Assembly (NCBI GenBank): GCA_025362395.1
Contig: JANYGK010000096.1
Coordinates: 1-32,569 of the forward strand
DNA length: 32,569 nt
Direction of reading: 5' to 3'
Source: Bacteroidota bacterium
GTDB lineage: Bacteria > Bacteroidota > Bacteroidia > B-17B0 > Aurantibacillaceae
Below, piece by piece: positions 2,858 through 21,752 of the stretch. Position 1 is the stretch's first letter; each line of letters starts with the position of its first letter. The notes beneath the pieces are model-generated. The model did no database searches. It had not been told where the DNA came from and saw nothing but the letters and a program-made list of their open reading frames with translations. A program made the position numbers and the translations under genes.

Positions 2858-5740
2858 TTAATTAACCTTATTTCCATTAATATCCAACTCAATAATTTCG
2901 TAACCGAGTTTAGAGAGTTTATCATAGTTTGTGGCTTTATCGCCTACTACTAAAATAACCATCCTGTCGTAAGGCAGATTATTTTTCGCAAGCAGGTCAA
3001 TTTCCGGTTTACTTATTGTATTAATTATTTCACCTTGTTTAATTACAAATGTTTTATCTAATCCAAACTCAAGAATACGTTTCACAAATCCCAATTTCTG
3101 GGCAGGTGATTCATATTTTAAAGCGTCTGCCTGTGCCATGGCATTTTTAGTAAAATCCAATTCTTCGTTAGTAATGCCGCCTTGGTTATATTTTTTTAAT
3201 TCATCCATAATAATTACTATAGAACTGTCGGTGGTATTTCCTTTTACACCGGCGCTTATAGTGTATGGACCGGCAAATTTATTGCCGTAAAAACCACCTC
3301 TTGCGCCGTAGGTAAACCCTTTAACTTCGCGTAATAAATAGTTAACACGGCTGTTAAATGCTCCTGCAAATGAATAATTCATAATCGTTGATTTAAAGTA
3401 TTCATCCGTTGCATCATATGCTAAAGAAATATAACCTACGCGTATCTCTGATTGAGGAGCGCCTTTTTTATCTACAAAATAAATGCGCGTTTTATCAATT
3501 TCCGGTAATTTGTATTTTGCCATTGGCATCGTAGCATTTGATTGTAACTTGGTTAAAAAGCCCAGTTTTTTTAAGGCCGATTCCAAGTCAATATCCCCAT
3601 TAACAGCTAACACGGAGTTGTAAGCGGAAAAATTTGTGTAATACGCTTTTACGTCGTCTAACGTAATAGAGCTAACGGTTTCCGTATTACCTATGCTCGG
3701 TAATGATAAGTTAGAGCCTGCCCCGTATAATAATTTTGAATATACGTTATTTGCAATAGATGTTGCTTGCGTTAATTGATTAGTAATATTATCTAATTGT
3801 GCCTTTTTTACCAAGTCAAAATCTTCTTTACTGAATTTAGGCATAAAAATCATTTCTTGCGCAATTTTTAAAGTAGAGTCCAAATTTTGTTTAAGGCACG
3901 ACACATTTATGTTTAATTCGTTATCGTTTGCCGAAAAAGATACGCTGCTCCCTAATCTTGCCAGTTTGTTTTCTATTTCTTCCGCACTGTGCAATGTGGT
4001 CGATTCTTGAAGGATAGAGGCTAACAATACCGCTAAACCTGCTTTATTTCCTGGTTCATACCGATGGCCTATCGGCATGCTGAATAAAATAGTTACTTTA
4101 GGAATATCGGTTGAATTGACACCGATAATTTTTATACCGTTCTTATAATCAGAAGTCCGGTAATTTGGCAAAGGAACTAATTTAGCAGGCGTAGAGGCAG
4201 GAGTCTTGCTTCTGTCAAAATTATCTTTAGGTTCATTGTACGATAAATTTTTATATTCCGCGCTTTCCTGTTCAATAGTTCTGTCATACATTTTCCATGT
4301 ATCGGGTTTTGCGGCAAGGTCTAATTTACCTTTTGGCACACAGCTTAATATCACGGCAAACTTACCTTTAATGTAAGTATTGTAAACGCGCATGACGTCG
4401 GCTTTAGTAACTTTTAAATTTTGAGCCAATTCCGTTTTTAAATAATTAGGATTGTCAGCGTAGGTTTGGTAAGCGGCTAACTGCTTGCCTTTACCCTGCA
4501 CGGTTGCAATAACTTCATATAAGTTACTTTGATAAGAAGCTTTATACTTTTTCATGTCATCATCGGTAGCACCGGTTTTTTCCCAATCAGCCAGTGTTTG
4601 GTTCAACAATGTTTCCATATCGGCCAGTTTTGTTCCGGCATTGGCACGGATCATTATTTCAAACTGCCCTGCCAATTCACGCCCGTAATTGTAAGCATTT
4701 GCAGAAACTGCTTTTTGTGATTTAATAAAGGCATTATATAAGGGTGAGCTTTTTGATGAAGAAAGTATTTCTCCTAACACGGTTAAGGCTGCTTCATCTT
4801 TATGCATGGACGGTACAGTAGCGTATGTAGCCTTATACATCGGGAACCGTACATTGTCTTCGTAAGAAATATATCGGTTTTCGGTTAACACGGCAGGCTG
4901 CTTATCCATATTTTTTACTTCGGGCCCGCGCGGTATAGAACCAAAGTAGGTATCGGCCAACTTAACTACTGCATCTGTATTAATATCACCTGCTATAGTT
5001 AATACAGCATTGTTAGGGCCGTACCAACGCATATAAAAACGCTTTAAATCATTTACATCAACCCGGTTCAAATCTTCAATATAGCCTATGGTGGACCATG
5101 AATAAGGATGCCCTTTAGGAAATAGGGCTTCGCCTGTTTTTTCTCCAACTAAACCATAGGGGCGGTTATCGTAGTTTTGTCCGCGTTCATTTTTTACGGT
5201 GGCGCGTTGTACTTCAAATTTCTTTTGTGTTACCGAATCCAGTAAAAAGCCCATACGGTCAGCTTCTAACCACAACATTTTTTCAAGCTGATTTGACGGT
5301 ACTGTTTCAAAATAATTGGTGCGGTCGGTATTTGTGGATCCGTTCAATGTACCGCCTGCTTCGGTAATAATTTTAAAATGCTGTTCATCAGCCACGTGTT
5401 TTGATCCCTGGAACATCATATGTTCAAAGAAATGTGCAAAGCCTGAACGGCCCTGTTGCTCCCTGTTTGAGCCCACGTGGTAAGTTACATCTACATACAC
5501 AATAGGGTCTGAATGGTCTTCGTGAACTATAACGGTTAAACCGTTAGACAGTACATATTTTTTATACGGAATAATGATTTCATTGCCCACCTTTGTAACC
5601 GTTTGCAACAATTTAGGCGCTATCCGCATCGTTGTAAGAGGTTTTACATAGTTTTTTGGCGGTTGTGTATTTTTTTGCACCTGAGCGGTAGTTGCTAAAG
5701 AAGCAAAAGTAAGCATCGCTATAAATGATCTGTTCTTCAT
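2858..5740 (-). CDS. secreted M16 family zinc metallopeptidase, two-domain
   Basis: This 960-residue insulinase/pitrilysin-type peptidase has an N-terminal signal peptide (about residues 1-20, ending near ATTAQVQ), so it acts in the periplasm or at the outer membrane. The inverted zinc motif HFFEH is at residues 103-107 and the third ligand, Glu185, is in KNERGQNYDNRP. The first M16 domain runs roughly from 55 to 470. A second M16-like half (about 540-930) lacks an HxxEH motif, as is usual for M16B/C proteins in which the C-terminal half shapes the chamber. Members degrade peptides; the actual substrate here is unknown. It stands alone, about 110 bases from bshA and from the next gene upstream. 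All catalytic residues appear intact. Confidence 0.92.
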   Translation of the reverse strand: MKNRSFIAMLTFASLATTAQVQKNTQPPKNYVKPLTTMRIAPKLLQTVTKVGNEIIIPYKKYVLSNGLTVIVHEDHSDPIVYVDVTYHVGSNREQQGRSGFAHFFEHMMFQGSKHVADEQHFKIITEAGGTLNGSTNTDRTNYFETVPSNQLEKMLWLEADRMGFLLDSVTQKKFEVQRATVKNERGQNYDNRPYGLVGEKTGEALFPKGHPYSWSTIGYIEDLNRVDVNDLKRFYMRWYGPNNAVLTIAGDINTDAVVKLADTYFGSIPRGPEVKNMDKQPAVLTENRYISYEDNVRFPMYKATYATVPSMHKDEAALTVLGEILSSSKSSPLYNAFIKSQKAVSANAYNYGRELAGQFEIMIRANAGTKLADMETLLNQTLADWEKTGATDDDMKKYKASYQSNLYEVIATVQGKGKQLAAYQTYADNPNYLKTELAQNLKVTKADVMRVYNTYIKGKFAVILSCVPKGKLDLAAKPDTWKMYDRTIEQESAEYKNLSYNEPKDNFDRSKTPASTPAKLVPLPNYRTSDYKNGIKIIGVNSTDIPKVTILFSMPIGHRYEPGNKAGLAVLLASILQESTTLHSAEEIENKLARLGSSVSFSANDNELNINVSCLKQNLDSTLKIAQEMIFMPKFSKEDFDLVKKAQLDNITNQLTQATSIANNVYSKLLYGAGSNLSLPSIGNTETVSSITLDDVKAYYTNFSAYNSVLAVNGDIDLESALKKLGFLTKLQSNATMPMAKYKLPEIDKTRIYFVDKKGAPQSEIRVGYISLAYDATDEYFKSTIMNYSFAGAFNSRVNYLLREVKGFTYGARGGFYGNKFAGPYTISAGVKGNTTDSSIVIIMDELKKYNQGGITNEELDFTKNAMAQADALKYESPAQKLGFVKRILEFGLDKTFVIKQGEIINTISKPEIDLLAKNNLPYDRMVILVVGDKATNYDKLSKLGYEIIELDINGNKVN

Positions 5741-12986: not shown

Positions 12987-14525
12987 ATGCCGATAAGAAT
13001 GACGGATGATGATGATTCTAATGATGGTTACAGCGGAAATCAAGGCAACAAGCGTTCCTCGGGGGGCGGTTCCGGCGGCGGTAATTTTATAATGATGATC
13101 CTTCCTTTTTTATTCAGGTATCCAAAATTAATTATTCCCGTAATTATAATAGGTGTTGTGTTTTATTTTTTTAGAGGAGGCTGCTCCGGTAGCAGTGCTT
13201 CACACAATGAGCCATCTTCTTACGCAACCGGTGCTACACTCGATAAAAATGTATACGACAGCGCGCAGGTATACGCTGCCTTAAGCTCCAATGAGCAATT
13301 GCCTGACAGGGTATCACTGGAGCGTTTTGCGCCTTCAGCTAAAGATCAGGGTCAACAAGGCTCCTGTGTAGGTTGGGGAAGCACCTACGCGGCACGAACT
13401 ATTTTAGAGTCAGTTAACACAGGCGAGGATCCCGATAAAATAGCGTTTAGCCCGGCGTACACATATAATCAAATCGGCCTCCGGGATTGCCAAGGCACTT
13501 ATATAAATAAAGCCATGGATCTTTTAACCAATAATGGATCCGTTCCTTTAAGTGAATTTCCGTATGATGAAAATTCCTGTTCAAAACAGCCCGATGGTTA
13601 TATTAAAAAAGATGCCACACACTTCAGGATGAAAGGAGCTAACCGTTTATCTGTTAGCGGCGATGATTATAGCATTGATGTAAATGCGATAAGGGAGAAC
13701 CTTGCTCACAATGCCCCTGTTGTGTTGGGTATGAATGTAGGTGGTACTTTTATGCAGGACATGGAAGGTAAAGAGGCGTGGATACCCGGTACCGGGGATT
13801 ACAACCAAGGCGGTTTCGGGGGCCACTGCATGTGTATTATTGGTTACGACGATAAGTATTTCGATAAAGACGGTGCTTTTTTAATACAGAATTCATGGGG
13901 CACTAAATGGGGAAAAAAAGGCAGAGCTTGGATAAGCTATGGCGATGTGGCTACCTTTGCAACCGAAGCCTACGGAATGTACCCGATGCCAAACAGAGTT
14001 GATCAGAGTAAATTAAATTGTATTCTTGCCTTGGTTGAAAAAGACACTAAAAATTATATTCCGCTTTTATATAAAGGAAACAACGTGTATACAACCCATT
14101 CAAAAATACCTGCCGGTACTAAATTTAAAGTGGAGTTCAAAAATAATATTGAATGTTATGTATATGTTTTTGGTAAAGAAACAGATAACGGCTCTTATAT
14201 ATTATTTCCTTATACCCCCAAGCATAGCGCGTATTGCGGTATTACAGGCACACGTGTTTTTCCGAGGGATAAAAGCATGACTCCCGATAATGTAGGAACA
14301 AAAGATTATATTTGCATATTAATATCCAAAGAAGCCTTGAATTTTAAAGAGCTCAATGAAAAATTTAATGCCGCTAAGAATGAGGATTATCAAAACCGAA
14401 TTAATAAGATTATTGCAGATCAGATAATCACGGATGTTAAATTTAATGTGGATACAAAGATAAGTTTTGATGCGGATGTAACCGATAAAACAATAGTTCC
14501 TATTATAATAGAGATAAATAAATAA
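12987..14525 (+). CDS. membrane-anchored papain-like (C1) cysteine protease with a C-terminal DUF4384-like domain
   Basis: The 512-residue protein begins with a short acidic segment, a Gly/Ser-rich linker (residues 23-33) and a hydrophobic anchor at about 34-62, so the rest lies outside the cytoplasm. The papain core is complete: oxyanion Gln121 and nucleophile Cys127 in DQGQQGSCVGWGS, His280 in GGHCMCIIGYDD and Asn302 in IQNSWGTKWG. Residues about 340-480 form a beta-rich domain resembling DUF4384, seen behind other Bacteroidota C1 peptidases. No pro-domain is obvious in the ~45 residues between the anchor and the core. An alternative start is the ATG four codons in. It is transcribed alone or with the methyltransferase gene 51 bases downstream. 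The substrate is unknown. Confidence 0.86.
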   Translation: MPIRMTDDDDSNDGYSGNQGNKRSSGGGSGGGNFIMMILPFLFRYPKLIIPVIIIGVVFYFFRGGCSGSSASHNEPSSYATGATLDKNVYDSAQVYAALSSNEQLPDRVSLERFAPSAKDQGQQGSCVGWGSTYAARTILESVNTGEDPDKIAFSPAYTYNQIGLRDCQGTYINKAMDLLTNNGSVPLSEFPYDENSCSKQPDGYIKKDATHFRMKGANRLSVSGDDYSIDVNAIRENLAHNAPVVLGMNVGGTFMQDMEGKEAWIPGTGDYNQGGFGGHCMCIIGYDDKYFDKDGAFLIQNSWGTKWGKKGRAWISYGDVATFATEAYGMYPMPNRVDQSKLNCILALVEKDTKNYIPLLYKGNNVYTTHSKIPAGTKFKVEFKNNIECYVYVFGKETDNGSYILFPYTPKHSAYCGITGTRVFPRDKSMTPDNVGTKDYICILISKEALNFKELNEKFNAAKNEDYQNRINKIIADQIITDVKFNVDTKISFDADVTDKTIVPIIIEINK

Positions 14526-15452: not shown

Positions 15453-17117
15453 ATGAAATTAAAAATTTTTACAGCCTGCCTTGCAGCATTAAGCAGTATG
15501 TCTTTTGCCCAGGCAACAATGACCAATGGCCCGGAGCTGGATAATGATCCGGACAATAGAATGAATCGTGTGCTTAGTGGTGACGATAACAGTTTTTATT
15601 CTTACAGGATTAAAACCAAAGGGAAAGGGACCTCTTTTTTTGTTGAAAAATATGATAAAAAGACTTTAAAATCATTATTCTCAAAAGAAATTAGTCTTGG
15701 CGAAGAAGGTCAGACTAAAATTGAAGATGTAGAATATGCGAACGGTAATATTTTTATTTTTAGAAGACAATACGATAAAAAAGCAGATAAAATGACCTTG
15801 TTTTTTCAAACAGTTTCTTCTGCAGGAGTAGTTTCAAACGATTTAAAAGAAATTACTACCGTAAATGCGGATCATTATGAGTTTGTGGATTTTGACATTT
15901 ATCCTAATCCAAATTTAACTAAGTTCCTTATTAAATCTTCACATAAAGCTAATAAAGCAGATACTTACAAAACTGATTTTTTGTTAATGGATGCTGTCAG
16001 CTTAAAAAAATTGTGGACAAAAACAGTTAATCAAAAATTACACAGCGGCGGCGGTATTAGTGCCGGATCAATAGTGACGAATTTGATTTTTGGAGGTGGT
16101 ATTGCATCAGAAGCTGAAGGGGTAGGTTTTTTAGGATTATTAATTGATAATAAAGATAATATTTATTGGGGATTTAATGGTTTAGCAAAAACGGCCACAG
16201 AAAAAGAGAAACGTTACCGTTTACATATATATACATTAAATGCCGGTGATCAAAAAGAAAAAGATTTAGAATTAACATTTGATGATGATTACCTGGTAAA
16301 TGATATTGAGTTTTCAAAAACCGGCGATAACGAAATTGTTATGGGTGGCTTTATTAAAGATGTGATTGAAAGAAAAGGAAGAGATTTGGTAAAATGTGGG
16401 ATATTTAGCTTTAAAATTAATTTAACTAATAACACGGTTGCTGCCAAAACCTTTAAGTTTTTTGATGACAAAATGTTAGTAGCGTTAGAGTCTAACCCAA
16501 GAAGATCAAAATATTTTAAATATAAACTGGATTATATTTTACCGATAGGCAGTGATGTTTATTACGTAGGAGAGCAGTATAATGAACAGTTCATCAAAAA
16601 TAATAATAATTCAATGGGTTCTATCGGGAGTAATGGTAATTGGACGTATGAGTACATGGATGTTATCATTGCTAAATTAAATGCAAAAGGTGAATTTGAG
16701 TGGATCAAAAACTCACCATTGCGTAATGAAATGACTATAGGAAGTATTGCACACGTTTTTAAACAATATATCGCGGTAGCAACCACTAAAAACTTATATA
16801 TATTAAATGATGATCATCCTAAAAACATTGAACGTTATGCCAAAGCGGATTTCGAACCAAAAGATCTGAAATCGGTTAGAGGGATACATGGTTCAAACTT
16901 TGTTTGTAACACAGTCTCTTTAAGAGATGGATCGGTTACCGAAAGACAAGTATTAATGAAAAATGAAGATTATTGTTTTGCGCCTATCCAGGAACGTAAT
17001 CCACAGTTCATTCCTCCATCCGATTGTGAAATCTTTGTGCCGGGAAAAGATAATGAGATCTTTATTTATACCGAAGATAAAGGAAAAGACAGATTTGCAA
17101 AGATCAAATTCCAATAA
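15453..17117 (+). CDS. secreted protein of unknown function, probably beta-rich
   Basis: This 554-residue protein starts with a clear signal peptide (MKLKIFTACLAALSSMSFAQ, cleavage near residue 19-21). The rest has no membrane helix. It alternates short predicted beta strands with Asp/Lys/Asn-rich turns and repeated phrases of the type DNKDNIYWGF, GDNEIVMGGFIKD, IGSDVYYVGEQYNE and TTKNLYILNDD. That spacing would fit a beta-propeller. No catalytic motif is visible and no T9SS C-terminal sorting domain is apparent. It is monocistronic: a promoter-like TATATTTA sits about 30 bases before the ATG and a strong terminator follows. I cannot name the family. Confidence 0.75.
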   Translation: MKLKIFTACLAALSSMSFAQATMTNGPELDNDPDNRMNRVLSGDDNSFYSYRIKTKGKGTSFFVEKYDKKTLKSLFSKEISLGEEGQTKIEDVEYANGNIFIFRRQYDKKADKMTLFFQTVSSAGVVSNDLKEITTVNADHYEFVDFDIYPNPNLTKFLIKSSHKANKADTYKTDFLLMDAVSLKKLWTKTVNQKLHSGGGISAGSIVTNLIFGGGIASEAEGVGFLGLLIDNKDNIYWGFNGLAKTATEKEKRYRLHIYTLNAGDQKEKDLELTFDDDYLVNDIEFSKTGDNEIVMGGFIKDVIERKGRDLVKCGIFSFKINLTNNTVAAKTFKFFDDKMLVALESNPRRSKYFKYKLDYILPIGSDVYYVGEQYNEQFIKNNNNSMGSIGSNGNWTYEYMDVIIAKLNAKGEFEWIKNSPLRNEMTIGSIAHVFKQYIAVATTKNLYILNDDHPKNIERYAKADFEPKDLKSVRGIHGSNFVCNTVSLRDGSVTERQVLMKNEDYCFAPIQERNPQFIPPSDCEIFVPGKDNEIFIYTEDKGKDRFAKIKFQ

Positions 17118-17167: not shown

Positions 17168-17204
17168 AAATCCTTTTTGAGTCAAATCAAAGAGGATTTT
17201 TTTT
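17168..17204 (+). terminator. rho-independent terminator after the secreted-protein gene
   Basis: A 13-bp stem pairs AAATCCTTTTTGA (17168-17180) with TCAAAGAGGATTT (17187-17199) around the loop GTCAAA. It has one G-U pair and is followed at once by a run of T (17200-17204 and on). It lies 50 bases after the stop at 17117 and just before the M48 gene start at 17228, so it separates the two transcription units. Confidence 0.8.
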
Positions 17205-17227: not shown

Positions 17228-19399
17228 ATGCAAAAACTCCCTCTGTTACTCTTGTTTACAACCATAATAGGTTATTCTCAACAAAATCTTAAAGAAAATT
17301 TTACCCCCTTAAAATCATCGGGTGTTTTACCTGATATTTTTACACAAAATATAAGAAATATTATTAAAGCGGATCTTACGGAGCTAAATAGGCAGAAAGA
17401 TGAAGATGAAAGGATTAAAAGCAATTACCTCACCGCCGCTAATTATGAAATTGAAAAAATTGTAAAAAGCGGGAATACGCTGATCAATGATGAGGTAACA
17501 ACATACTTAAATGAGCTTACAGGCGTTATTCTTAAAAACAACCCGGCCTTAAAAAATCAGCTTCACATTTACACCCTTAAGTCGTCGGTGGTTAATGCTT
17601 ACAGTTATGATAAAGGATATATATTTATTGATATAGGCTTAATTGCACAGGCAGAAACAGAGGCCCAACTAGCCTACATCTTATCACACGAAATATCCCA
17701 TTTTACTAAAAAACATAATATTAATAGTTATGTAAATAATACAAAAATTGATAAAAAAAACTATACCGGGAAAACGAGTGAAGATAAGCTGATCGAAAAA
17801 TGCCAGTATTCGAAAGAACACGAAAGTGAAGCTGACCTTGAAGGATTTAAATTACTGGAACAGACAAACTATGATTTTAAGCAAACAGAAAAAGCATTTG
17901 ACGTATTACAGTATGCACATTTGCCGTTCGAATTAGTAGAATTCCGGAAAACCTATTTTAATAACCCTAACTATAAAATTCCCGACCGTTATTTTTTAAA
18001 AGAAGTTTCCTCTATCCGGAATAACTCGGCCGAGGATGATACAAAACATACACATCCTAATACTGCCAAACGTAAGCAGGCTATGACGGAGCTCATCGCT
18101 AAACGAAGCAACGAAGGCAGAGTAAGCTATATACTGGGGAGAGAAAAATTTGAATATATCCGCGACCTTTCCCGGATGGAGCTTTGCAGGTTATATTTAA
18201 AGAACAGGGATTATATGAATGCGTTTTATGCCGCTTATATACTCGAAAAAAAATACCCGCAAAACGAATATATTGCAGAAACAATGAGCAAGTGTATGTA
18301 CGCTATTACACTTTACGATAAAGGTGATCTGCGTTACGATAATGATTCTTATCTTGAAAACGGCATTTTATCGCATACGGATATAGAGAGTTACCCGCAG
18401 CAACTGTATTACCTGGTAAATAAAATGCCAGCTAATGAGTGGACCATTTTATCGATGGATTATGTATACCGTAACCATAAAAAGTTTCCGGGTAATAAGG
18501 TAATCAACGCGTATGCCGACAGTTTATTTAAGTTGATGGGAGCTACCGACTGGGGCATCTTTGACTTTGTAAGAACAAATGTAAAAACAGCGCCCGCCGA
18601 AACTAAAATTGACACAACGCATAAAGAAATAGAAGTAAGTACGTCAAAAACTGACCTGATTGCGAACATACAAAAAGAAAATAGTTTTAAAAATTACGAT
18701 ACGGCTTATTATAAAGAAATTTATGTTGACCTGTTTATGAGTGATAAAGAATTTGTTTCCAAGTTTCCTTCCGGCGGCACTAAAGTAGAAACTTCTTCAA
18801 GCGGGTTTAAGAGCTATAAAGAAACGGCACAATACAGTAATAAAAAGAAAAAAGGGAAACAATATAAAGATGTAAAAATAGATAAAGTAATATTACTTGA
18901 GCCTTTCTATTTAAAAATAAACGAGAAAAAAGCGGAGGAGGTAAGGTATATTGATTCCGACGCGGGGCAGGAGAAGTTTGTAGTTACCGTAAATAACTGC
19001 GCCCAAAAACAGGATTTTGCAATTGTAACCCTTGATCCCGGGCTGATAAGCCCGAACGAAGTGGATAAGGTAAATGATTATTCGATAATAAACGATTGGT
19101 TTTTAGAAAAATTTGACGCAGCCTCAAATACAAACACAGCTATTTTTAATACAGACGAAATTAATGGTATCGTTAAAAAATATGCCACACAATATGTTTT
19201 AAGAACAGGCCTTATCAGTTATAAAAGCAAACATGGAAGAAAAGCGACTTATTATTACGCGTATGTTTTTGATATATTGAATAATGAAATGATCTATAAA
19301 AAGCAAGAAGTGTTTAAAGGAAAAGATACCAAAGACCTAGTAAATGCTAAAGTGTACCAGACATTGTTTGAATTAAAACGCCTTAAAAAACAAGTATGA
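17228..19399 (+). CDS. M48 family metalloprotease, BepA-like, with TPR region and an extra C-terminal domain
   Basis: The start is set at the ATG at 17228, which gives a signal peptide (MQKLPLLLLFTTIIGYSQQ); the longer frame begins with TTG inside the upstream terminator. The 723-residue protein carries HEISH at 154-158, a third zinc ligand at Glu199 in EHESEAD and HTHP at 275-278, the layout of BepA/YfgC periplasmic proteases. Residues about 300-470 are helical and TPR-like, as in BepA. BepA helps outer-membrane protein assembly at the BAM complex and degrades stalled substrates. A Lys-rich linker and a further domain of about 170 residues (from LLEPFYLKINE to the end), which BepA lacks, close the protein. 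Its stop overlaps the next start (ATGA), coupling it to three outer-membrane proteins. Confidence 0.86.
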   Translation: MQKLPLLLLFTTIIGYSQQNLKENFTPLKSSGVLPDIFTQNIRNIIKADLTELNRQKDEDERIKSNYLTAANYEIEKIVKSGNTLINDEVTTYLNELTGVILKNNPALKNQLHIYTLKSSVVNAYSYDKGYIFIDIGLIAQAETEAQLAYILSHEISHFTKKHNINSYVNNTKIDKKNYTGKTSEDKLIEKCQYSKEHESEADLEGFKLLEQTNYDFKQTEKAFDVLQYAHLPFELVEFRKTYFNNPNYKIPDRYFLKEVSSIRNNSAEDDTKHTHPNTAKRKQAMTELIAKRSNEGRVSYILGREKFEYIRDLSRMELCRLYLKNRDYMNAFYAAYILEKKYPQNEYIAETMSKCMYAITLYDKGDLRYDNDSYLENGILSHTDIESYPQQLYYLVNKMPANEWTILSMDYVYRNHKKFPGNKVINAYADSLFKLMGATDWGIFDFVRTNVKTAPAETKIDTTHKEIEVSTSKTDLIANIQKENSFKNYDTAYYKEIYVDLFMSDKEFVSKFPSGGTKVETSSSGFKSYKETAQYSNKKKKGKQYKDVKIDKVILLEPFYLKINEKKAEEVRYIDSDAGQEKFVVTVNNCAQKQDFAIVTLDPGLISPNEVDKVNDYSIINDWFLEKFDAASNTNTAIFNTDEINGIVKKYATQYVLRTGLISYKSKHGRKATYYYAYVFDILNNEMIYKKQEVFKGKDTKDLVNAKVYQTLFELKRLKKQV

Positions 19400-20181
19400 G
19401 GTTTGTAGTGTTACTTATTTTAATGAGTTGTTCAATAACGGTCTTTGCTCAAACTCCCGGTTACATGGGTAAGCGTTTTGGAGCAGGTTACGGCGCTTAT
19501 GCAAGCCCGGGGTACATTGGCTCGGCAGGTGCCACGCCTGTAAATATACAACATGAGGCCTTTGTAGAGTTTGTTACAAAAAAACGGTTCAGTATCGGCT
19601 TATCTGTAAAAGCTTACAAAGCAATTTATGCCAACACAAGGTATGTAAACGTATTAGATAATAACTCATCCTCTAATGATCAGATTGACAAACACCCTTC
19701 GGGTGTTACAAACATCAGGGCAAAAAACTATATGCTTTACTTTAAATTTTTCGGTAAACATTACTTGGCGCCTTGGGGCAGGTATTTTATTATGGGAGCA
19801 ACCCTTAACACATTTAACTCAACCTACGATCCCGATCACATGAATGTAGGTACAGAATCATCTCCAAGTTATAGTAACGGATATACTCATTCTGGGTATG
19901 TTTCATATTCTGATTTCGGGCCTGCAAAACAGTCATTCAAAAAATTTGATGTGATGATAGGCTGGGGAAGAAGTAGAATTGTTGCCGACAGAATTACGAT
20001 CGATTATGGTTTTAACGTTAATTTGTGGGCCTTTACAGCCACAGTATTCGATGCGCCCGATGATGATATAGGAGAAAAAATACTGCTTCCCGACAAATAC
20101 ATAAGCACTATTTCAGCTGCAAGAATAAGAGGGGTAAACAGGTTCAATATATTTTGTAAAATTGGGATTTTATTATTCTAA
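19396..20181 (+). CDS. outer-membrane beta-barrel protein, PGYMGKRF family, paralog 1
   Basis: This 261-residue protein has a signal peptide (MRFVVLLILMSCSITVFAQ), and the mature chain opens with TPGYMGKRFGAGYG, motif at 21-28. The body consists of alternating amphipathic strands, and the last residues, RFNIFCKIGILLF, end in Phe as outer-membrane barrels do. Motifs shared with the next two proteins are LAPWGRYFIMGATLN, MIGWGRSRIVADRITIDYGFN and the RGVNRFN ending. The ATG overlaps the stop of the M48 gene in ATGA, so translation is coupled. It is the most divergent of the three at the DNA level. I do not know the family name; an 8-10 strand barrel is likely from its length. Confidence 0.8.
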   Translation: MRFVVLLILMSCSITVFAQTPGYMGKRFGAGYGAYASPGYIGSAGATPVNIQHEAFVEFVTKKRFSIGLSVKAYKAIYANTRYVNVLDNNSSSNDQIDKHPSGVTNIRAKNYMLYFKFFGKHYLAPWGRYFIMGATLNTFNSTYDPDHMNVGTESSPSYSNGYTHSGYVSYSDFGPAKQSFKKFDVMIGWGRSRIVADRITIDYGFNVNLWAFTATVFDAPDDDIGEKILLPDKYISTISAARIRGVNRFNIFCKIGILLF

Positions 20182-20281
20182 AACTATGAGTTTAAAATTA
20201 CGTTGCCTTAAATGCCTGTTTATCTTATTAGGAGTGCTGCAAGCCCATTCGCAGGCTCCCGGCTATATGGGCAAACGCTTT
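20179..20281 (+). repeat. 103-bp near-identical segment, copy A (start of paralog 2)
   Basis: This segment covers the stop codon of paralog 1, the 4-base spacer and the signal peptide plus PGYMGKRF codons of paralog 2. Compared by eye with 20981-21083, it is the same length without gaps and differs at 8 of 103 positions. The final 32 bases are identical. Confidence 0.9.
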
Positions 20282-20983
20282 GCGATTCATTATGGCTTTT
20301 ACTTTAGTCCGGCAATATTTGGTTCCAATGCACAAGGCAATACCATGATTGGGAAATCTGAATCAAAATCTGAATCAGGTCATTTTGCCTTTAATTCGCA
20401 GCATCAACTGGGCATAGAATATGTTTTAAAAAATCATTTGTCCATTGGTTTTTCAACTACCTATTATAGAACAATGTATGACAATAGTATTCGCGTGAGT
20501 TCTAATTTAGGATATCCAACCGGTAACTATGATATTTCGGGGCTTAACTATTCTCTGTATTTTAAAATCTATAGAAAACAAAGTCTGGCACCTTATGGCA
20601 AATACTTTTTGTTTGGCCCTACACTTAACACCACTAAAAGTACCTATTCCAACACTTATATGAAAATTGCCAACCCTAATACGCCCTATGATAACAATTT
20701 CGGACTACTCGAGCAAAAATATAAAAGAGTTGATTTGGTAATAGGGTGGGGTAAAAGCAGAATTTTATATAACAAGCTTGTGGTTGATTACGGATTTAAC
20801 TTACAGTTTATAGGAACTATTAATGCGGTGTTTGGACCCGAAAGTACTGAAATACTGGATCTTTCCTTTGATTTCATTCATTACCATACTGCGTTAAACT
20901 ATATTGAAAACACTACCCGGTTAAGAAACAGAGAAGTAAATAAATTCAACGTTTTTATAAAAGTAGGTGTATTATTATTTTAA
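20186..20983 (+). CDS. outer-membrane beta-barrel protein, PGYMGKRF family, paralog 2
   Basis: The start is the ATG at 20186, 4 bases after the preceding stop; the longer frame begins with TTG inside paralog 1. The 265-residue product has the signal peptide MSLKLRCLKCLFILLGVLQA followed by HSQAPGYMGKRF, with the motif at 25-32. Barrel-like strands include LAPYGKYFLFGPTLN, VIGWGKSRILYNKLVVDYGF and a C-terminus KFNVFIKVGVLLF ending in Phe. Its first 100 bases are nearly identical to those of paralog 3, whereas the bodies differ widely. The function is unknown. It is most likely placed in the outer membrane through BAM, perhaps with help from the upstream BepA-like protease (inference). Confidence 0.8.
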   Translation: MSLKLRCLKCLFILLGVLQAHSQAPGYMGKRFAIHYGFYFSPAIFGSNAQGNTMIGKSESKSESGHFAFNSQHQLGIEYVLKNHLSIGFSTTYYRTMYDNSIRVSSNLGYPTGNYDISGLNYSLYFKIYRKQSLAPYGKYFLFGPTLNTTKSTYSNTYMKIANPNTPYDNNFGLLEQKYKRVDLVIGWGKSRILYNKLVVDYGFNLQFIGTINAVFGPESTEILDLSFDFIHYHTALNYIENTTRLRNREVNKFNVFIKVGVLLF

Positions 20984-21083
20984 AACTATGGGTTTAAAAT
21001 TACGCTGCCTTACCGGCCTGTTTATTTTATTAGGAATGCTGCAAGTCCATTCGCAGGCTCCCGGCTATATGGGCAAACGCTTT
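20981..21083 (+). repeat. 103-bp near-identical segment, copy B (start of paralog 3)
   Basis: This is the second copy of the segment at 20179-20281, placed equivalently over the stop of paralog 2 and the start of paralog 3. Identity stops right after the codons for GKRF. A further 20-base identity (GGTGTATTATTATTTTAAAA) links the 3' ends of paralogs 2 (20966-20985) and 3 (21735-21754), so the duplicated unit covered a whole gene. Confidence 0.9.
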
Positions 21084-21752
21084 AATGTAGGCTACGGATT
21101 TAATGTAAGCCCGGCTATTTTTGGCGCAACTCCCAAAAATAAAACACTGCTTGGTGATGGGGGTTCCGCTGAGTATGGCAATTTAGCTTTTAATAAAATT
21201 CATGAGGGCTTTATTGATTTTGCGCTCTCCCGTAAATGGATGATCTGTTTTTCTGCAAGGTATTACAAAACAGCTTACGATAATCCGAGTCAGATAAAAG
21301 AAAGAACTAATCCTTTTTACATGAATTCCCATCGTACCGCCGATGATTATTTTTATATCATAAAAGGACAAACCTATACGTTGTATTTTAAATATTACAA
21401 TTCTAAAAGTGTGGCGCCATGGGGAAGATATGTATTATTTGGTCCAACATTAAACAGAACAAATTCAATATATAAAGATGTAGTTGAAAAACATTCAACC
21501 TTAAACTTTACGATGGGCTTTGGCAGAACCCAAATTATTGCCAATAGAATATCCATTGACTATGGCTGTAATTTTCAGCTTTTTTCTATTCTTACCGGCT
21601 TTGCCGATCTGGCATCCTATGCCTTTGATGAGGATATATTAAAAAACTATCCTACAACAGCAGGTAATTATTTTGAAAGAACTACTCAAATGAGAGCGCG
21701 TGGTGTAAACCGCTTTAATGTGTTTTTAAAGATCGGTGTATTATTATTTTAA
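20988..21752 (+). CDS. outer-membrane beta-barrel protein, PGYMGKRF family, paralog 3
   Basis: The start is the ATG at 20988, 4 bases after paralog 2; the longer frame begins with GTG. This 254-residue protein has the signal peptide MGLKLRCLTGLFILLGMLQV, then HSQAPGYMGKRFNVGYGFNV. Shared barrel motifs are VAPWGRYVLFGPTLN, MGFGRTQIIANRISIDYGCN and the C-terminal NRFNVFLKIGVLLF. It is the last gene of the M48-plus-barrels operon; a convergent gene begins 28 bases beyond. A weak stem (CAGT/ACTG) in that gap is too short to call a terminator. The function is unknown. Confidence 0.8.
   Translation: MGLKLRCLTGLFILLGMLQVHSQAPGYMGKRFNVGYGFNVSPAIFGATPKNKTLLGDGGSAEYGNLAFNKIHEGFIDFALSRKWMICFSARYYKTAYDNPSQIKERTNPFYMNSHRTADDYFYIIKGQTYTLYFKYYNSKSVAPWGRYVLFGPTLNRTNSIYKDVVEKHSTLNFTMGFGRTQIIANRISIDYGCNFQLFSILTGFADLASYAFDEDILKNYPTTAGNYFERTTQMRARGVNRFNVFLKIGVLLF

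Follow-up and report, generated by a model that had tools for sequence, protein, structure and literature searches.

In a 32,569-nucleotide stretch of DNA from a Bacteroidota bacterium of the GTDB family Aurantibacillaceae (assembly GCA_025362395.1, contig JANYGK010000096.1, positions 1-32,569 of the forward strand; hereinafter, the window), a gene for an M48 metalloprotease (17228-19399; 723 amino acids) is directly followed by three genes for paralogous outer-membrane barrels: barrel 1 (19396-20181; 261 amino acids), barrel 2 (20186-20983; 265 amino acids) and barrel 3 (20988-21752; 254 amino acids), all on the + strand, as are the hairpin and the protease and barrel segments with coordinates given below. 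The protease and barrel families are genuinely, if not absolutely, linked in the class Bacteroidia, and together with a lipoprotein-type domain, which forms part of the protease in some genomes and has a gene of its own in others, they look like a three-part module. Since it recurs in many Bacteroidia genomes that are only distantly related, the arrangement is suggestive of an envelope module not described before. M48 envelope proteases are known as such; in the portion of the open-access literature that was covered, no description of an M48-lipoprotein-barrel module, with this domain arrangement and barrel partner, was recognised.

The TGA stop codon of the protease gene shares bases with the ATG of barrel 1 (ATGA overlap, 19396-19399), and the same 4-nt spacer, AACT, separates barrel 1 from barrel 2 and barrel 2 from barrel 3. 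Barrels 2 and 3 show 39% and 35% identity to barrel 1, respectively, and all three end in LLF and carry the sequence PGYMGKRF behind an N-terminus that, by eye, resembles a signal peptide. Re-reading of the sequence bears out the gene coordinates, motifs, overlap, spacers and paralogy of the barrels given in a first-pass annotation of the window. Similarity and profile searches of the same genome revealed no further member of the barrel family elsewhere, and its single other M48 gene encodes a protein of 276 amino acids.

Linkage of the protease and barrel families

Within the family, the window protease used as a query has matches in 39 of the 87 genomes at 1e-10, and a profile of the three barrels has matches in 25 of the 87 at 1e-5. 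All 25 barrel-encoding genomes are among the 39 that encode the protease (hypergeometric P 3e-12, a value that ignores phylogeny). The distance between barrel and M48 genes is at most 1 kb in 20 of these genomes and at most 2 kb in three more, among them G047 and G048, where a split M48 match exaggerates the measured distance of 1-2 kb; the pair is unlinked in G003 and G038, so that the connection between protease and barrel is not absolute. The barrels are present in one to four copies per genome, usually beside one M48 gene. The first-pass annotation had called for a search for co-occurrence and had named independent occurrence in most related genomes as the outcome that would speak against its proposal; co-occurrence of the PGYMGKRF family with this protease was found both here, in 25 of 25 barrel genomes and within 2 kb in 23 of them, and in the class as a whole. 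A draw of genomes at the order level returned the same family only.

Relatives of the protease were detected at 1e-25 in 98 of 396 Bacteroidia genomes, representing 64 of 196 genera; the class searches scored at most two M48 and six barrel candidates per genome, so that copies can be missed, and the absence of an M48 match at this level means none at E 1e-25. After removal of duplicates, the loci from this search and their neighbourhoods yielded 116 non-redundant M48 open reading frames (ORFs) of at least 440 amino acids that start near the start of the profile, of which 106 are long (at least 600 amino acids) and 10 are short (below 600). A barrel neighbour was defined as the first downstream gene with a product of 170-345 amino acids and the N-terminal motif G[YFH]x[GNH]x (mostly GYxGK). 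Under this definition, the barrel is the next gene for 72 of the 106 long M48 genes (72 pairs from 63 genomes), with a gap of -4, that is, an ATGA-type overlap, in 26 of the 72 pairs. Barrels with a variant motif are found at three more long M48 loci (L186, L195 and L223), and a divergent barrel gene lies directly upstream of the M48 gene in another five (L150, L168, L180, L182 and L204). The association of the protease with the barrel family therefore extends well beyond the window.

The pattern itself matches 17 of 170 non-adjacent ORFs. Eight of these 17 appear by eye to be secreted, namely the five divergent upstream barrels, one ORF after a truncated M48 ORF (L187), one after a C-terminal M48 piece (L181) and one that lies on the opposite strand ~1.2 kb downstream (L165); the other nine matches are taken as chance. 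Because the motif was written after the loci had been seen, two motif-independent counts were made. When the neighbours at 111 loci were clustered by BLAST, the main barrel cluster was present at 64 loci and the next two clusters at five each, one of these again consisting of barrels. When a profile of 60 barrels was searched against the 396 genomes, 100 of the 121 strong matches (E up to 5e-16) fell within 5 kb of an M48 match, and 79 of the 83 genomes with a strong barrel match contain an M48 match, compared with 98 of 396 overall (hypergeometric P 3e-59, again regardless of phylogeny); the linkage derived in this way is somewhat inflated because the profile was built from the window barrels and from M48-linked, motif-bearing barrels. 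Given these class-wide counts and the 23 of 25 family genomes with close pairs, a chance pairing peculiar to this one locus is rejected.

How often the module is encountered depends strongly on sampling. In a phylum-level draw of 198 genomes it is present only in the genome of the window; the 20 other genomes that were listed, all 100% complete, belong to the same class, and the composition of the remaining 177 was not listed. Comparison of this figure (1 of 198) with that for the class (98 of 396) implies that either the module is patchy or the two draws are composed very differently. The mirror-tree correlation between protease and barrel (r 0.67 over the 72 pairs) is not separable from the species phylogeny. 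The largest form of the module seen (L007, 5704-13508; also G050) includes two tandem M48 genes that are ~40% alike, followed by four barrel genes.

Domain composition of the module proteins

The protein encoded by the M48 gene of the window begins with a signal-peptide-like sequence that has no visible lipobox (both judged by eye). Its C-terminal domain (residues 550-723, ~175 residues; 18875-19396), which went unnoticed when a BepA layout was initially assigned to the protein, has no Pfam match at E 0.1 and is predicted, with moderate support, to adopt a fold of the PelC/CsgG/TolB-N/LptE type. In comparison with solved structures, its best matches are HpaA (Z 9.4, root mean square deviation (rmsd) 3.4), PelC (Z 8.7, rmsd 4.0) and CsgG (Z 8.4, rmsd 4.2), followed by TolB (Z 7.7), PqiC (Z 7.1) and LptE (5ixm, Z 6.6, rmsd 6.4; 4rh8, Z 6.5, rmsd 3.4). 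The tool warns that Z values below 8 often arise by chance, and the comparison used the domain as part of the full-length model. A single fold group accounts for most of the structure matches that cover these residues.

The same domain is found as a separate lipoprotein in other genomes. Nine of the 10 short M48 loci have room downstream, and in eight of the nine a small lipoprotein-like protein is the product of the adjacent downstream gene (recognised by pattern in seven cases and by eye in L092, which is cut by the end of the locus). Alignment of these eight split lipoproteins with the C-termini of the fused proteins by hhalign gave a probability of 99.3 (E 8e-21), compared with 0.2 for a reversed control. 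At the ninth locus, L170, the next gene encodes a non-lipoprotein piece of the C-terminal domain, devoid of a lipobox, which aligns with the fused C-termini at a probability of 99.8. The gene that follows is a barrel by motif in six of the nine loci (L093, L170, L229, L230, L231 and L234), likely a barrel in L221 (weak profile match) and possibly one by eye in L233; in L092 it is beyond view. That one domain occurs in some genomes as part of the protease and in others as the product of a gene located between those for protease and barrel is a classical sign of parts that work together. Thus, the window domain resembles the LptE, PelC, CsgG, PqiC and HpaA-type domains in its predicted fold and in the lipoprotein-like character of its stand-alone versions, and differs from them by its fusion to a protease and the lack of a Pfam match.

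The protease itself matches Pfam Peptidase_M48 (E 1.8e-17) and contains the motifs HEISH (residues 154-158; the zinc site, 17687-17701), ESEAD (residues 199-203) and HTHP (residues 274-277). The predicted fold, together with the sequence, delineates a BepA-like catalytic region (~residues 82-300; 17471-18127); predicted secondary structure and a low-confidence part of the model point to helical hairpins, possibly TPR-like, after it (~residues 305-439; 18140-18544), with no Pfam TPR match. The mean predicted local distance difference test score (pLDDT) of the model is 58.8 overall, with better values for the catalytic and C-terminal parts. Predicted residues 65-338 match BepA 6ait with Z 17.0 (rmsd 3.8, 187 residues aligned), and residues 79-318 match BepA 6sar with Z 16.9 (rmsd 2.7, 158 residues aligned). 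The HEXXH signature is retained in 112 of the 116 M48 relatives, and therefore proteolysis probably matters to the module. The four relatives that lack it are L176, L203, L204, where the site reads REIAH, and L232; a barrel neighbour is still present in L204 and L232.

The resemblance to BepA thus includes the M48 catalytic domain with its HEXXH/ExxAD/HP layout, the predicted fold, the helical region that follows and a periplasmic location, the last judged from the signal-like start of the window protein. BepA is a two-domain protein that consists of M48 and TPR parts, as described in the portion of the source consulted (PMC8423444). The window protein differs in that the sequence similarity that contributes to the score is limited to ~residues 74-166, in its length of 723 residues with an extra alpha/beta C-terminal domain, compared with 487 residues for the 6sar chain, and in the barrel genes attached to its gene. 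Its score of 60.2 bits against the NCBIfam BepA equivalog NF052400, for which the cut-off is 570, leads to rejection of a plain BepA ortholog; hence, the initial description of a BepA-like protease holds for the catalytic part, on the basis of sequence and predicted fold, and does not extend to orthology. The score against the NCBIfam LoiP model NF052399 is lower still (13.6 bits, cut-off 365). LoiP and YcaL, which likewise are M48 proteases, are lipoproteins linked to the turnover of outer-membrane proteins, and the passage that deals with them names neither a fused domain nor an attached barrel (PMC13067283). BVU_0371, known here by its description alone, is a BepA-like protease that is raised by bacteroidetocin (PMC8546649).

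Barrel 1 is predicted to adopt an eight-stranded OmpA/OprF/OmpW-type fold: its model (mean pLDDT 78.8) matches OprF (4rlc; Z 16.1, rmsd 2.5, 132 residues aligned), OmpA (1qjp; Z 14.9) and OmpW (8qxp; Z 14.4). None of the 60 barrels of the profile set matches any Pfam family at E 0.01, the three window barrels include nothing over a Pfam cut-off (barrel 3 scores 16.2 bits against OMP_b-brl, cut-off 28.7), and a search of solved structures with the barrel profile gave no match at E 1. Two single matches within the set of 60, one to the PorG model of the type IX secretion system (E 0.0019) and one to an inorganic diphosphatase model (E 0.00052), were judged to be chance, and a PorG-like nature of the barrels was accordingly rejected.

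The 60 barrels were picked beside M48 genes and by the N-tail motif. In barrel 1, the conserved N-tail QTPGYMGKR (19450-19476) comes directly after the presumed signal peptide, and the predicted periplasmic turn T2 reads APWGRY (residues 125-130; 19768-19785), with P126 and G128 found in 60 of the 60 barrels. Jensen-Shannon (JS) conservation is 0.65 for the N-tail, a value that is in part circular, since almost every one of the 60 barrels was chosen for that very motif, 0.47 for turn T2 (APxGxY) and lowest, 0.19-0.23, for the extracellular loops. Five positions, G22, G25, K26, P126 and G128, are invariant also among 15 barrels, from the window and from M48 neighbours, that were found by similarity and not by motif. 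The order of the strands puts the N-tail, turns T1-T3 and the C-terminus on one side of the barrel, which by analogy with OmpA is predicted to be the periplasmic side. The family shares the predicted fold with OmpA/OprF/OmpW-type barrels, from which it differs in the N-tail GYxGKR, the invariant P-x-G of turn T2 and the lack of a Pfam match; the P-x-G turn could be a general trait of such barrel folds. In-frame stops are present in two barrel copies, possibly decaying genes (G297:C29:2275-3009, directly after an M48 gene, and G197:C1:43677-44132).

Partners, clients or neighbours

BepA-type M48 proteases are known both as helpers and as executioners of outer-membrane proteins, and little is understood of how they are targeted and which clients they serve. 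A protease that is genetically linked to a single barrel family, and whose lipoprotein-type domain is fused or split, provides a defined pair for the study of outer-membrane protease targeting and adds to the Bacteroidia a recurrent envelope module as well as a family of barrels for which Pfam has no entry. The most parsimonious reading, which we tentatively favour and to which we give close to an even chance, is that of a conserved outer-membrane module in which the M48 protease has the barrels as stable partners at the outer membrane, rather than as clients. The secreted M48 protein, with its BepA-like zinc protease domain, helical region and C-terminal domain of the outer-membrane-lipoprotein type, would act on the periplasmic side of the outer membrane with the one to four small eight-stranded barrels encoded directly downstream. 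The barrels would dock and orient the protease through two elements, GYxGKR in the N-tail and APxGxY in the periplasmic turn, their variable surface loops would meet the exterior, and the docked protease would cut or check nearby envelope proteins. The gene order and its recurrence, the fission and fusion of the domain, the conservation of the catalytic motif and the conserved positions on the side of the barrel predicted to be periplasmic are observed here; a physical complex, a docking surface, a partner rather than a client role and the substrate are inferred. A more elaborate version, which at present is rather unlikely, would be an as yet undescribed, regulated protease system resident in the outer membrane of Bacteroidia, in which the barrels with their variable loops serve as sensors or adaptors and the conserved periplasmic face controls the docked M48 protein via the lipoprotein-type domain.

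Several observations weigh against stable partnership. Three family genomes encode the protease and have no barrel match: in G071 and G075, a close M48 relative (45-47% identity) directly adjoins a convergent acyltransferase gene, and in G053 the M48 gene has a different downstream gene. In the class, 24 of the 106 long M48 genes have no assignable adjacent barrel, a number that remains after subtraction of the 72 pairs, the three variant-motif and five divergent loci, G032, where the barrel is 1.2 kb away, and G297, where the barrel has an in-frame stop; in G032, inspection by eye of three forward frames between the two genes revealed no recognisable barrel remnant. Conversely, 21 of the 121 strong barrel matches have no M48 match within 5 kb or on the same contig. 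Four of the 21 come from genomes without an M48 match; another, in G339, starts close to the end of its contig, and the M48 gene of that genome is likewise close to a contig end. Co-divergence of paralogous pairs within genomes gives a mixed picture, exceeding 0.6 in two of 10 comparisons and being at most 0.17 in the others. The overall confidence of the M48 model is low, the match of the C-terminal fold is moderate even for HpaA, and both the N-tail conservation and the linkage in the set of 60 barrels are partly circular.

The main competitor of stable partnership, possible and on balance doubtful, follows the first-pass annotation in casting the M48 protein as a dedicated assembly and quality-control protease and the barrels as its clients: the protease would help their insertion, as BepA does for LptD, and cut stalled barrels, with the C-terminal domain as a built-in LptE. 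This explanation is attractive because a BepA-like protease itself carries a fold that resembles, among others, that of LptE; the same linkage data from the family and the class are compatible with it, and a shared helper would explain why a single M48 gene can stand beside several barrel genes. However, M48 relatives persist without barrels, and LptE is not the best match of the C-terminal fold, being outscored by HpaA and PelC. Furthermore, small eight-stranded barrels usually fold with the beta-barrel assembly machinery (BAM) alone and rarely need dedicated help, which also counts against the barrels being clients.

Distinctly less probable is a role of the M48 protein as a general envelope stress protease of the BepA-like kind, with the barrels as co-regulated neighbours that serve another function, for example in surface binding or in the interaction with phages or predators. 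The occurrence of M48 genes without barrels and of barrels without M48 genes, as well as the presence of only one other M48 gene in the genome of the window, would fit such a protease, whereas the lack of any other neighbour family in more than five of the 111 loci, the -4 overlaps in over a third of the pairs and the preservation of the pair in divergent arrangements argue against mere co-regulation. An export or secretion apparatus, in which the CsgG/PelC-type domain and the barrel would form a small channel and the protease would mature the exported substrate, is very improbable: the C-terminal domain does have fold matches to CsgG and PelC, which are parts of export systems, but the clustering of neighbours at the 111 loci revealed no recurrent substrate gene and an eight-stranded barrel is normally too narrow for a channel. 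As for a defence system, four proteins of the window have no PADLOC match at E 0.1 and this candidate was rejected; for a virus-borne origin, one pattern scan of viral contigs detected no relative.

Compared with the accessory subunits of the Bacteroidota BAM (BamG, BamH, BamM, BamP and others), the module is likewise Bacteroidota-specific outer-membrane machinery. The parts consulted of the papers on these subunits name no M48 protease as a subunit, and the term 'M48' is absent from their main texts (PMC12611786, PMC12578637).

Surroundings of the module in the window

Upstream of the M48 gene, a terminator-like hairpin with a T run (17168-17199) separates it from a gene for a 554-amino-acid protein (15453-17117). 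This hairpin is a weak boundary because the scan of the region found seven such sites compared with 4.1 expected by chance; a promoter scan of the region was at chance level (19 found, 20.5 expected). The 554-amino-acid protein looks secreted and has no Pfam match at E 1. Its relatives are encoded directly upstream of the M48 gene in several genomes of the family, and it is not a recurrent neighbour class-wide in the BLAST clustering of neighbouring ORFs. Farther upstream, the gene at 12987-14525 encodes a cysteine protease of the papain-like (C1) type; a hydrophobic stretch is visible by eye close to its N-terminus, and its C-terminal part resembles DUF4384 with a score just under the Pfam cut-off. 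The gene at 2858-5740 encodes a 960-amino-acid protein with duplicated M16 (insulinase-type) peptidase domains.

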